Assembly (NCBI RefSeq): GCF_900112135.1
Contig: NZ_FOLC01000007.1
Span: forward strand, 1-64,000
Source of the DNA: Collimonas sp. OK412
Lineage (GTDB): Bacteria; Pseudomonadota; Gammaproteobacteria; Burkholderiales; Burkholderiaceae_D
Reading direction: 5' to 3'
DNA length: 64,000 nucleotides
In this document: positions 1 to 10,753 of the stretch, piece after piece
Layout: each line of letters begins with the position of its first letter
Position numbering within the stretch: position 1 is the first letter of the stretch
Translations under genes and position numbers: made by a program
Notes under the pieces: generated by a model
Told to the model about the DNA's origin: nothing
The model's input: the letters and a program-made list of their open reading frames with translations, nothing else
The model's database searches: none

Positions 1-290
1 AGCCTGAAACCGGCGAACCAGCGATACGCAACGTTCACTTGTACTTCGCGCATCAACTGCCGTTCACTGCGTACGCCAAACAGATAGCCAATGAATAAGA
101 GTTTGAACAACACTACCGGATCGAGCGCCGGACGCCCGTTATCGGCGCAGTACAGGTGCGCTACCTTCTCACGGATAAAATCGAAATCGACCGCCGCAGC
201 GATCTTACGTAGTAGATGATCACTGGGCACCAGGCTTTCCAGTGTCACCATCTCCAGTTCGTGCTGGTACGGTGCAGGGATTTTTAGCAT
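1..290 (-). CDS. IS1182-like family transposase, N-terminal part (runs off window edge)
   Basis: Reading leftwards from an ATG at 290, the frame is open to the window edge and encodes about 96 residues beginning MLKIPAPYQHELEMV. They are nearly identical to the N-terminus of the transposase at 8675-10120, with a few substitutions such as DFDFIREK for DFEFIRAK. No stop or indel is seen, so this copy may be intact outside the window. This part is the DUF772-type N-terminal region of IS1182/IS5-like transposases; the catalytic DDE residues would lie off the window. Confidence 0.88.
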   Translation of the reverse strand, partial: MLKIPAPYQHELEMVTLESLVPSDHLLRKIAAAVDFDFIREKVAHLYCADNGRPALDPVVLFKLLFIGYLFGVRSERQLMREVQVNVAYRWFAGFR

Positions 291-342
291 GCCCCATTAT
301 AGAAAAAGCCTTCCAATTTCGGAAGGCTTTGTCAGCAACCTG
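1..342 (-). mobile_element. IS1182-like insertion sequence, copy A, partial (right end)
   Basis: The first 342 bases match the right end of the complete IS at 8606-10172 over the same length without indels, with roughly two dozen base differences by eye (about 93% identity). The element ends at 342 with the same 12-base terminal sequence, GTCAGCAACCTG. It is therefore a diverged second copy in the same orientation, cut by the window edge. It abuts a terminator-type palindrome at 343-363 downstream of the BCCT transporter gene. Its left end and left flank lie outside the window. Confidence 0.9.
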
Positions 343-7406: not shown

Positions 7407-7514
7407 CGCATTCTTCCCAGGGGAGGGGTGGCAGGTTTTCAATGGGGTGATTGTGCATCGTCGATGTTTATGCTACAAGTGAATTATCATCATAAATATT
7501 ATGCGAGTTTATTT

Positions 7515-8426
7515 GTGAATACCCATGACATCGAAGCGTTCGTCGCCGTGGTCGAGACCGGCTCCATTGTTGCCGCGGCGACTCGCCTGCACCTGACCCA
7601 GCCCGGCATCAGCCGTCGCGTGCAAAGCCTGGAAGAGCGGCTGGGAGTGGCGCTGCTTGAGCGGCAGTCGAAGCCGCTCAAGCCGACTGCGGCCGGGCGC
7701 GAGGTCTACCAGCGCGGCCGCCGCGTGCTGGGATCGGTGGCGGATCTGCTGGCGGGCGTCGAACCCGGTTCGGAAGCGAGCGGCGAATTCCGGCTTGGGG
7801 TGGCGCCCTTCGTGGCGGAACTGGCGCTGGCCCAGCCTATCGACAGGCTGCGCAGCGAATTCGCCAGGCTGGCTTTGCGCATTACAACCGGCTGGTCGCC
7901 ATCGCTGCTGACCCTGCTGGAAAGCAATGCGATCGACGCCGCTGCGGTAGTGCTGCCGGACGACGTGATGCCGCCTGCCACGCTGACCACGCATTTGCTT
8001 TGCCATCAGATCCCGCTGATCGTGGCGCACAGGGAAGCGCCCATGCGCAAGGGCAGCTTGTCATTGCAGGAACTGGCGACGCAATCCTGGGTGCTGAGCC
8101 AGGACGGCTGCGGCATACGCCGCTCGATCCGGCATGCGCTGGATGCGGCGCGTTTGCCGGTGGATATTGCGGTGGAGACTTATGGCAGCGAGCTGCAATT
8201 GTCGCTGGTGGCGCGCGGCGTCGGCATCGGCATGGTGATGCCGGGCGCCTTGGCGCGCAGCGCATTCCGCGAACAGTTGCGGGTGTTGCAGGTGCCGCAA
8301 TTCAAGGGGGGAGTGAATACATGGCTGGCGCACGCCCGGGCGCCGGGGCGGCTGGCCGCGCCGATCGAGCGCTTGCGGCAAGACATGAGCGCGATGCTGG
8401 AGGCGGAGGAACAGCTGCCGCTTTGA
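7515..8426 (+). CDS. LysR-family transcriptional regulator
   Basis: LysR-type regulator of about 303 residues. The N-terminal winged helix-turn-helix is clear (DIEAFVAVVETGSIVAAATR, then LTQPGISRRVQSLEERLG), followed by a periplasmic-binding-like effector domain ending near residue 295. No in-frame ATG fits: GTG 7515 gives the usual family start (VNTHDIEAFV), while ATG 7464 would add an AT-rich, unlikely leader. The 108-bp gap to the MFS gene holds an AT-rich stretch with an inverted repeat TTAT-CATC-ATAA at 7484-7495, a candidate regulator or promoter site. It probably controls the divergent MFS gene. Confidence 0.87.
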   Translation: MNTHDIEAFVAVVETGSIVAAATRLHLTQPGISRRVQSLEERLGVALLERQSKPLKPTAAGREVYQRGRRVLGSVADLLAGVEPGSEASGEFRLGVAPFVAELALAQPIDRLRSEFARLALRITTGWSPSLLTLLESNAIDAAAVVLPDDVMPPATLTTHLLCHQIPLIVAHREAPMRKGSLSLQELATQSWVLSQDGCGIRRSIRHALDAARLPVDIAVETYGSELQLSLVARGVGIGMVMPGALARSAFREQLRVLQVPQFKGGVNTWLAHARAPGRLAAPIERLRQDMSAMLEAEEQLPL

Positions 8427-8581
8427 ACGGCTAGGCAAGATTAGCGCTGGCTGAGCAATTTTTGCCTGACGGAGGCCTGTATCTCGGCAAACAAGGATTG
8501 GTGGCCGCGGCTGGCGCGCGCCAGTGCAACTGCGTTTATCAAAGCGCTTCACCGTGATTCGGGCGCGGCACCCGAAAAAAA

Positions 8582-8605
8582 GCCCCGTTCAAGTAAGAAC
8601 GGGGC
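8582..8605. repeat. Left copy of 24-bp duplicated terminator hairpin (IS target duplication)
   Basis: GCCCCGTTC-AAGTAA-GAACGGGGC is a perfect 9-bp stem with a 6-base loop. The identical 24 bases recur at 10173-10196 directly after the IS, so they look like a target-site duplication spanning a whole hairpin. This left copy is preceded by A7, which becomes the T-run for minus-strand transcripts, including the transposase mRNA. On the plus strand the hairpin is followed by IS sequence instead of T's, so LysR transcripts lose their terminator tail. Confidence 0.9.
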
Positions 8606-8618
8606 CAGGTTGCTGACG

Positions 8619-8650
8619 AACCCACCATTTTTTGGTGGGTTTTGTTTTTT
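8619..8650 (+). terminator. IS-internal terminator near left end
   Basis: AACCCACCA and TGGTGGGTT form a 9-bp stem (8619-8627 and 8633-8641) followed by a T-rich tract on the plus strand. It would stop plus-strand read-through from the LysR side from running antisense into the transposase gene. Confidence 0.7.
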
Positions 8651-8674
8651 GTGGTCTGAAATTGCGCCGCGACA

Positions 8675-10120
8675 CTAAAAAACAGGTGATCGGCAGAGGA
8701 AGGCGTCATGCAAGAGGAAATGACGCAGCAAGGCGTATGTGCGGTCGAGATGGACGTTTAAGGAAGCTAAAAGCCGCGCCAGCAGCAGCGCGATCTTCTT
8801 CATATTCTGGCAAGCAGCCCCCAGCAGACATTGCTCGGCAAGCTTGCGCAAGCCACGCATCTTTGCATAACGATGGCCATGTAGCTGCTTAGCGTCGGCG
8901 AAACTGCGCTCCACTGTTTCCTTGCGTCGGGCATAAATACGCTTACCCCACTCAGTAAGCCGCCTGGCGTTGACAGCTTCCTTGGCGCGCTCCCATACGT
9001 GCCGCACCACGACCTTCACCCCATTGGCGCTGTTGGTGCATTGTGTGCGCACAGGGCATCGCTGGCAGATCGCTGCGTTCGATTTGTACTCGCGATAACC
9101 GATCCGGTTAGTCGTACTGTAGGCCAGCGCCTGGCCTTGCGGACACAAGTACTCGTCGCGATACGCGTCATACTGGTATTGGCGTTTATAGAAGGTCCCT
9201 GGCTTGTGATTGGGTGTGCGATACCCCATGATCCCGGCAATGCCACGCTGTTCCAGCCCTTGGCATACCGCCGGCGTGAAATAGCCGGCGTCCAGCCCCA
9301 CCGCACTGACAGGAAAGTTGAAATGACTGCGCTGTCGATCCAGCCGCCCCAGATACGGCATGCTGTCGTGTACCGACGCCGGCGTCACATAGGTATCGGT
9401 GATGATGGCATGCTTGGCGTCGACTGTACGGTGATCCAGGTAAAAGAACCCTTTGGGCTTGTCGTCGCGCACCATGTAGCCGCTCTCGGGATCGGTGCGA
9501 CTGACCTTGATGTCCTTGGTCGGTGGCGTATCGTCGTCATCGCGCTTGAGCGGCTTCTTGCCATGCGCGGCCCGGTCTGCATCGACCGCCGCATCGAGCT
9601 CGGCCAGATAAGCTGAGGGCGTTTGCTGCACCGTCACTACATCAAACTTGTTCTTGTTGGCATTGGCCTTCAGGTGGGTACTGTCGGTGTAGAGCACACG
9701 GCCATCGACCATGCCGCGTCCCATCGCCTGGCGTACGATCTCATCGAAGATGGCTTGATACACCGTGGTGTCCGTGAAGCGCCGACGCCGGTTCTGAGAG
9801 AACGTCGACGCGTCCGGCACCTTGTCGGTGAGTCGGAAGCCAGCGAACCAGCGATACGCCACGTTCACTTGCACCTCGCGCATCAACTGCCGTTCACTGC
9901 GTACACCAAACAGATAGCCAATGAACAAGAGTTTGAACAGCACCACCGGATCGAGCGCCGGGCGCCCGTTATCGGCGCAGTACAGATGCGCTACCTTCGC
10001 ACGGATAAACTCAAAGTCGACCGCGGCAGCGATCTTGCGTAATAGATGATCACTGGGTACCAGGCTTTCCAGTGTCACCATCTCCAGCTCGTGCTGGTAA
10101 GGCGCAGGGATTTTTAGCAT
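8675..10120 (-). CDS. IS1182-like family transposase
   Basis: DDE transposase of 481 residues. The N-terminal DUF772-type region (about 1-110) carries RSERQLMREVQVNVAYRWFAG, followed by a DDE_Tnp_1-type core. Probable acidic residues are D in VLYTDSTHLKANANK, D in AVGLDAGYFT and E in RKETVERSFADAK. Cysteines in CPQGQ, CQRCP and TQCTNS form the zinc-ribbon-like insertion typical of IS1182-like proteins. The ATG at 10120 directly follows GAGGG without usual spacing, and a TATAAT lies just upstream at about 10126-10131, so translation may be leaderless or weak. The frame is uninterrupted and the element may be active. Confidence 0.93.
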   Translation of the reverse strand: MLKIPAPYQHELEMVTLESLVPSDHLLRKIAAAVDFEFIRAKVAHLYCADNGRPALDPVVLFKLLFIGYLFGVRSERQLMREVQVNVAYRWFAGFRLTDKVPDASTFSQNRRRRFTDTTVYQAIFDEIVRQAMGRGMVDGRVLYTDSTHLKANANKNKFDVVTVQQTPSAYLAELDAAVDADRAAHGKKPLKRDDDDTPPTKDIKVSRTDPESGYMVRDDKPKGFFYLDHRTVDAKHAIITDTYVTPASVHDSMPYLGRLDRQRSHFNFPVSAVGLDAGYFTPAVCQGLEQRGIAGIMGYRTPNHKPGTFYKRQYQYDAYRDEYLCPQGQALAYSTTNRIGYREYKSNAAICQRCPVRTQCTNSANGVKVVVRHVWERAKEAVNARRLTEWGKRIYARRKETVERSFADAKQLHGHRYAKMRGLRKLAEQCLLGAACQNMKKIALLLARLLASLNVHLDRTYALLRHFLLHDAFLCRSPVF

Positions 10121-10132
10121 CCCTCATTATAG

Positions 10133-10160
10133 AAAAAGCCTTCCAGTTTCGGAAGGCTTT
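10133..10160 (-). terminator. IS-internal terminator near right end
   Basis: AAAGCCTTCC and GGAAGGCTTT form a 10-bp stem (10135-10144, 10151-10160), followed by a T-run on the minus strand. It would stop minus-strand transcripts entering from the DUF1993 side before the transposase gene. The same hairpin, with one loop change, is at 303-330 in copy A. Confidence 0.75.
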
Positions 10161-10172
10161 GTCAGCAACCTG

Positions 10173-10202
10173 GCCCCGTTCAAGTAAGAACGGGGCTTTT
10201 TC
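10173..10202. terminator. Right copy of duplicated terminator hairpin
   Basis: The 24-bp hairpin GCCCCGTTC-AAGTAA-GAACGGGGC is repeated here immediately after the IS right end, followed by T5 on the plus strand. It lies just past the DUF1993 stop codon. On the minus strand it retains the stem but has lost its own T-run, which sits on the other side of the IS at 8575-8581. Confidence 0.85.
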
Positions 10203-10243: not shown

Positions 10244-10753
10244 TTAATAAGCGCCCATGAAGTCACGCTTGCCGACTTCCACGCCGTTGTGGCGCAGGAT
10301 GTCATACGCAGTGGTCACATGGAAGAAAAACTGCGGCAGGCCGTAGCCCAGCAGGTAAGTCTGGCCGGTCAGCTTCTTTTCTTTCGGCGTGCCGGGCCGC
10401 AAGACGATTTCCAGCGTTTCGCTGCCGTCGATCTGCGCTGCGGTCAGGCCGTCGATGAATGCCAGCGTCTTCTGGATGCGGGCGTGCAGATCGGCGAAAG
10501 TCAGTTCGCTGTCTTCATACGCAGGAACTTCGGCGCCTGCCAGGCGGGCCGGCACGCTCTTGGCGAAATCGGCAGCGATCTGCACCTGGCGCAGCAGCGG
10601 GAACATGTCCGGGAACAGGCGCGCCTGCAGGAACGCATTGGGATCGATCTTCTTTTCGGCGGCGTGCGCTTCGGCCTTTGCCAATACGTCGTTGAGTGCG
10701 CTGAGCATCTGCTTGAAGACAGGAATCGAGGCGCTGTACATGGAAATGGTCAT
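10244..10753 (-). CDS. DUF1993 family protein
   Basis: Predicted cytosolic all-helical protein of 169 residues that fits the DUF1993 family (DinB-like fold), of unknown function. Recognisable stretches are MTISMYSASIPVF at the N-terminus, LFPDMFPLLRQVQIAADFAK near residue 50, and the closing LPQFFFHVTTAYDILRHNGVEVGKRDFMG. There is no signal peptide or membrane segment. It starts at ATG 10753 and stands alone; its terminator is the hairpin that received the IS. Confidence 0.88.
   Translation of the reverse strand: MTISMYSASIPVFKQMLSALNDVLAKAEAHAAEKKIDPNAFLQARLFPDMFPLLRQVQIAADFAKSVPARLAGAEVPAYEDSELTFADLHARIQKTLAFIDGLTAAQIDGSETLEIVLRPGTPKEKKLTGQTYLLGYGLPQFFFHVTTAYDILRHNGVEVGKRDFMGAY

Follow-up and report, generated by a model that had tools for sequence, protein, structure and literature searches.

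An IS1182-family insertion sequence of Collimonas that probably targets intrinsic terminators and duplicates the whole hairpin

IS1272 and TnSha1 of Staphylococcus target hairpins, many of which are terminators, and delete part of the hairpin without any target duplication (Furi et al., 2016; PMC4923244). Replacement of a stem-loop by IS1272 was reported in Wan et al. (2017; PMC5678879), whose Fig. 13 also draws a hypothetical pathway b, in which a join made at the 5′ foot would leave two copies of the complete stem-loop. For the targeting of palindromes by some members of the IS1182 family, both papers cite Siguier et al. (2015). ISCaa15, an IS1182 element, is described with 4-bp repeats (PMC3196728). 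The words hairpin and palindrom are absent from the passages available from PMC3281130. In the parts of the literature covered, with ISfinder outside the scope of the search, neither the duplication of a whole hairpin as an observed fact nor paired inward terminators were found for the IS1182 family.

The window analysed here is a stretch of 64 000 nucleotides from Collimonas sp. OK412 (contig NZ_FOLC01000007.1). It carries an insertion sequence of 1567 bp (8606–10172, minus strand in the orientation of the transposase), bounded by 24-bp direct repeats and 12-bp inverted repeats. The transposase gene (8675–10120, minus strand) encodes a DDE-type protein of 481 aa with the Pfam domains DDE_Tnp_1_6 and DUF772, which matched the NF033551 model (transpos_IS1182) with an E-value of 1.1e-143 and 479.7 bits (cut-off 270). 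The terminal inverted repeats (CAGGTTGCTGAC) are perfect over 12 bp and lie at 8606–8617 (plus strand) and 10161–10172 (minus strand); the same or nearly the same ends were found in other Collimonas copies. The type of transposase, the terminal inverted repeats and the palindromic target all place the element in the IS1182 family. It resembles IS1272 and TnSha1, as these are described in the passages available, in its family and in its target, a stem-loop that is often a terminator and shows little sequence conservation. Whereas those elements remove all or part of the stem-loop and leave no duplication, the window IS duplicates the whole stem-loop.

The direct repeat (GCCCCGTTCAAGTAAGAACGGGGC) is 24 nt long and occurs at 8582–8605 and 10173–10196 with 100% identity. 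Each copy forms a hairpin with a 9-bp stem and a 6-nt loop, and the folding z-scores of the two copies relative to shuffled sequences were −5.4 and −4.3. An earlier note on this DNA had described the flanking repeat as a complete stem-loop; structure and coordinates proved exact. The neighbouring genes are convergent and encode a LysR-type regulator on the left (7428–8426, plus strand; Pfam HTH_1 and LysR_substrate) and a DUF1993 protein on the right (10244–10753, minus strand; Pfam DUF1993, E-value 1e-62). Seven A residues precede the left hairpin (8575–8581, T7 on the minus strand) and five T residues follow the right one (10197–10201, plus strand), so that the halves of a bidirectional lysR/DUF1993 terminator now lie on the outer sides of the element, where the note had placed them. 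Terminator-like sites were called at 8606–8581 on the minus strand (left hairpin and A7), in the direction of transcripts exiting the IS, including that of the transposase, and at 10172–10197 on the plus strand (right hairpin and T5). The two predicted sites agree with the proposal that insertion split a terminator, gave each flank a stem and left the transposase gene with a terminator of its own. The reading of the locus as a whole-hairpin duplication at a terminator is supported. From the comparisons described below, we consider it very probable that the lineage of this IS inserts into intrinsic (rho-independent) terminators by virtue of their structure, copies the stem-loop and exchanges one terminator for another.

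The window, which opens at the contig start, begins within a second copy, one of a sister IS, whose end occupies 1–342 (minus strand; 93% identity over 6–342). It is flush with a 21-bp hairpin at 343–363. The presumed partner of this hairpin lies at a contig end (L006), and the pairing is backed by a single relative that aligns across the empty site. Further matches to the IS were found in the same genome, which is in 60 contigs; they are about 84–94% identical and mostly broken at contig ends. Loci L058 (Collimonas sp. OK607) and L098 (congener G014) aligned identically to the IS.

Twenty-five ends of Collimonas copies were scored, 18 in the window genome, six in G014 and one in G003. All 25 were flush with a hairpin of score ≥6, a score reached at 0.65% of the flank positions in the Collimonas background, and chance is thereby excluded. 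Outside the hairpin, an A-rich stretch was seen by eye at nearly all of these ends. IS matches other than the 25 scored ends were remnants in G013, one locus in G011 (L101), with a clear hairpin at the IS end, and one in G031 (L102), where only an interior segment of the IS aligned. The G013 remnants (L235, G013:C17:272000-275200) are shortened and MITE-like, with left ends that are still recognisable; one hairpin is clear, and one is imperfect and set back by a few bases.

Fourteen ends could be assembled into seven paired sites, with duplications of 22, 21, 18, 27, 19, 18 and 19 bp. The two hairpins of each site have the same sequence and the sequences differ between sites. No partner was found for the ends L012 and L015. 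One paired site lies after an apparent tRNA gene, read by eye from the sequence. Empty sites were searched for by joining, for each of the seven sites, the two flanks around a single hairpin copy and comparing the products with 15 genomes of the genus, including their own. At least one fetched relative aligned across the junction, with a single hairpin, for six of the seven sites, and insertion thus makes two hairpins from one. For the site L011/L005, none of the relatives fetched from these 15 genomes spans the junction. The hairpins adjoin the IS ends and might be taken for parts of the element that travel with it; the unlike hairpins at the paired sites and the single hairpin of the IS-less relatives leave this next to no credibility, and hairpins carried by the element were ruled out by the empty sites. 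The group of the window IS shares the hairpin target of IS1272-type replacement. The deletion of the hairpin without duplication, which belongs to the same type, was not found in it: the whole hairpin is duplicated, and the single-hairpin empty sites tell the same for six of seven sites. Two expectations of the earlier note, that other copies would mostly adjoin hairpins with duplications of hairpin length and that empty sites would hold one hairpin, were borne out by these comparisons and those with relatives below, the duplicated sequences being unrelated.

That note had also proposed to look for an empty site between the LysR and DUF1993 genes of a sister strain. The terminator of the window itself has an orthologue in G004 (L115), present there once: one hairpin, differing from that of the window by two loop bases, lies downstream of DUF1993; no LysR gene was matched in the stretch compared. 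At L116, L123 and L125 the LysR neighbour is retained and is followed by one hairpin of another sequence. In two congeners (L124, L122) the stem of the DUF1993 terminator is seemingly broken by a small sequence with hairpins of its own (GCCGTTCAG...), which may be another kind of terminator-associated insertion.

Relatives of the transposase were then considered in other genomes, and the best 80 of 207 were fetched. Throughout the analysis, loci duplicating others were removed (L098, the same DNA as L058; L103, the same as L097; L162, the same as L134). The 5′ end was located by its motif at 67 of the 80 loci and the other 13 have no motif-located 5′ end. A hairpin of score ≥6 lies at most 2 nt from 64 of these 67 ends and is exactly flush with 49; the background for such a hairpin within 2 nt is 1.5% of positions. 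Of the 25 3′ ends located by the motif, 16 are exactly flush with a hairpin and 23 lie no more than 2 nt from one. When a strict flush test was applied, 65 of the 92 motif-located ends scored ≥6, and 22 of the 27 misses were hairpins offset by 1–2 nt. Of the 73 loci searched among these best 80 of 207 relatives, 45 have an exact repeat of 14 bp or longer. By eye, a hairpin adjoins at least one end of 19 of the 28 loci lacking such a repeat; the remaining ones are mostly without a located end, and no hairpin was seen by eye at L089 and L031. Genomes G197, G130 and G354 hold several copies each, with a different hairpin for each copy.

Three of the 67 5′ ends missed the hairpin: L024 and L067 are below the threshold and L089 has a 5-bp repeat that is not a hairpin. 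L031 passes only by a weak hairpin 2 nt away. The earlier note had named short or non-palindromic duplications in other copies as a finding that would speak against it; the 5-bp repeat of L089 is of that kind.

The pooled set comprised 69 distinct duplications of 15–33 bp, the length of which follows that of the hairpin; this range ruled out a duplication of fixed length in the hairpin group. The duplication starts with A in 59 of 69. An A or T tract (at least four in eight positions) lies outside 68 of the 69 on at least one side and outside 52 on both. In 32 of the 69 duplications the cut falls a single A-T pair beyond the G+C-rich stem, and in 50 the palindrome extends past the cut by at least one pair. 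That the cut tends to fall at the edge between A-tract and stem, though pairing continues outside it, could be explained by a transposase that reads terminators as a linear pattern (A-tract, G+C block, T-tract) or as a symmetric duplex site, with no extrusion. A dimer bound to B-DNA is expected to space its two cuts at a fixed distance. The duplications vary with the hairpin and no common stem sequence was seen by eye, so a linear or duplex site seems unlikely to be what is read.

Recognition of the folded structure is the reading that we prefer. The likely substrate would be an extruded hairpin or cruciform, in which the cut points meet at the junction regardless of stem length, so that duplications tracking the hairpin would follow; on B-DNA, the two cuts would have to be made 15–33 bp apart with variable spacing. 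On each strand, the DDE transposase would attach a 3′ end of the element to the terminator stem at its 5′ foot, the join often lying a single A-T pair beyond the G+C-rich stem. Repair of the gaps would then place the whole stem-loop on both sides of the IS. The proposal of the earlier note that the target is recognised by its fold and not as a linear sequence is strengthened by the relation between duplication and hairpin length; recognition of the cruciform itself is a matter of geometry, from which we infer it together with the order of the chemical steps.

In several copies (L025, L026, L137/L168 and L195) the ends abut different hairpins and those copies consequently show no duplication; at L198 one end abuts a hairpin and the other shows none that is clear. 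Three hairpins of genome G288, each present twice, are shuffled among three copies (L184, L187, L190), and for this reason recombination between copies is likely to have produced the copies with unlike end hairpins. Misassembly at repeats in draft genomes is another possible source, less so for L168 (G197:C1:1148400-1152200), which belongs to a one-contig genome and whose two ends abut unlike hairpins. One of these hairpins is the duplication sequence of copy L172, as if L168 and L172 had recombined. L195 (on a Staphylococcus simulans plasmid) and L198 (on an Enterococcus faecium plasmid) are sister-lineage elements without duplication, perhaps representing a third mode or rearranged copies.

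A phylum-wide sample of 150 genomes was searched with NF033551, the model that had detected the window IS; 83 genomes had a match and 20 were above the cut-off. Duplications of 4 bp were found in 11 IS1182-family elements with good terminal repeats. The duplication is GGCC or GGTC in ten of them (L135, L138, L139, L141, L142, L143, L148, L150, L173 and L174) and GACT in the eleventh (L179). Elements were assigned to this class when their terminal repeats matched at 12 or more of 14 positions and the 4-bp repeat was one of those shared (GACT in L179). Left outside the class were, among others, L145 (6–8 bp), L156 (4–6 bp), L153 (3 bp), L159 and L180 (4 bp each), as well as L136/L164, L183, L184, L187 and L190. 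L173 (G000:C26) and L174 (G000:C28), which duplicate GGCC, are in the window's own genome. Detected like the other nine with the same model as the window IS, they differ from it, as do those nine, by the mostly GGCC or GGTC duplication, the rarity of inward hairpins and the end hairpins: a hairpin score of 6 was reached at 0 of the 22 ends of the 11 elements. By eye, in several genomes, their insertion sites seem loosely symmetric (GTC ... GG[CT]C ... often GCAGCC), a pattern that is perhaps a weak palindromic target.

Two trees were built from transposases of at least 380 aa, IS1272 being on neither. The quick tree included the long-branch rows L156, L153, L145, L063 and L030 and the careful tree was made without them. 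The hairpin duplicators form one side of a branch on both (SH-aLRT 90 on the quick tree; support 93/88 on the careful one). Of the outgroup rows, L195 (Staphylococcus simulans) and L198 (ISEfa7) stand nearest. The window IS, with its 24-bp duplication, is outside the 4-bp subgroup and separate from it on both trees. Hairpin duplication is confined to one lineage among the resolved ones; that it is general to the IS1182 family was ruled out by the 4-bp relatives. The hosts of this lineage belong to the Pseudomonadota, Bacillota and Lentisphaerota. It includes L193, an ISBspe1-type element annotated as IS1182-like on an Alkalihalophilus pseudofirmus plasmid, which has a 20-bp whole-hairpin duplication and a transposase 57% identical to that of the window IS, in a host of another phylum.

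The 4-bp relatives also bear on the idea that the IS inserts anywhere and that selection retains the harmless copies, those in terminators. Terminators are intergenic, so survivors would be enriched there. Selection cannot, however, fix the cut at both feet of the hairpin or match the duplication to the hairpin length, and the 4-bp relatives that share the genome lack this tie to hairpins. Selection is very improbable as the whole explanation, and it may add to targeting.

Terminator-like hairpins facing inward were found inside the IS ends; they are absent from the earlier note. The left one (8618–8642, plus strand) faces transcription from the lysR side and was obtained both by folding and by the terminator scan. 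The right one (10135–10160, minus strand) faces transcription from the DUF1993 side and was obtained by folding; read from 10160 to 10135, it has few unpaired T in its tail and is not among the sites of the window terminator scan. In the hairpin lineage, such inward hairpins are present at 111 of the 124 ends of 62 elements, which represent 46 and 45 distinct 60-nt ends and share ancestry, so that these are counts from related elements. By side, they occur on the transposase 5′ side in 59 of 62 elements and on the 3′ side in 52, with both in 49; the two ends of the window IS are included in these counts. Terminator-like hairpins facing outward were found at 3 of the 124 ends, and terminator-like hairpins occurred in 132 of 1860 internal control windows. 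The 4-bp elements have inward hairpins at 2 of 22 ends. A narrower terminator scan, by which stems at the first bases of the IS are missed, gave 22/60 and 24/60 ends.

These inward hairpins might be structures for transposase binding or synapsis and not terminators. Many Bacillota copies use the terminal repeat itself as the first arm of the inward hairpin stem, as would suit that role. In the Pseudomonadota copies, by contrast, the stem lies inside the terminal repeat and its sequence is unlike between elements. The T tracts are directional, as the counts of inward and outward ends indicate, and the 4-bp relatives mostly do without inward hairpins. A binding or synapsis role is possible but somewhat doubtful. 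The inward hairpins may instead replace the host terminator that the IS has broken; they could also only shield the transposase gene, or act as binding sites.

Replacement of the terminator would work as follows. The outer flanks keep the A/T tract, so transcripts exiting the IS would still meet a hairpin and a U-tract. Incoming host transcripts would lose the U-tract and could be stopped by the inward hairpins just inside the IS. Insertion would then amount to one terminator exchanged for another, with the host genes and the transposase gene protected. That termination takes place and is of benefit is what we infer from this arrangement. On balance, we favour the view that a lineage present at least in Pseudomonadota, Bacillota and Lentisphaerota attacks the 5′ feet of extruded terminator hairpins and carries inward terminators that replace the one it breaks, which would make insertion nearly neutral.

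Group IIC introns and IS1397/ISKpn1 prefer stem-loop targets as well, with enzymes or products other than those of the window IS. The target duplications of DDE transposases are usually short and constant in length. A duplication set by the target hairpin points to structure-guided strand transfer, for which the 15–33 bp range gives a clean genomic read-out. The lineage would provide many natural examples of the route that Wan et al. drew, in the passages available, as a possibility beside the deletion made by IS1272. If so, then together with IS1272 one transposase family would act on both sides of the same DNA junction, duplicating in one case and deleting in the other. If the inward hairpins do terminate transcription, the parasite uses terminators as safe sites and repairs the breakage that it causes. 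Intrinsic terminators and DNA hairpins might also be studied in vivo with the IS as a marker or tool.
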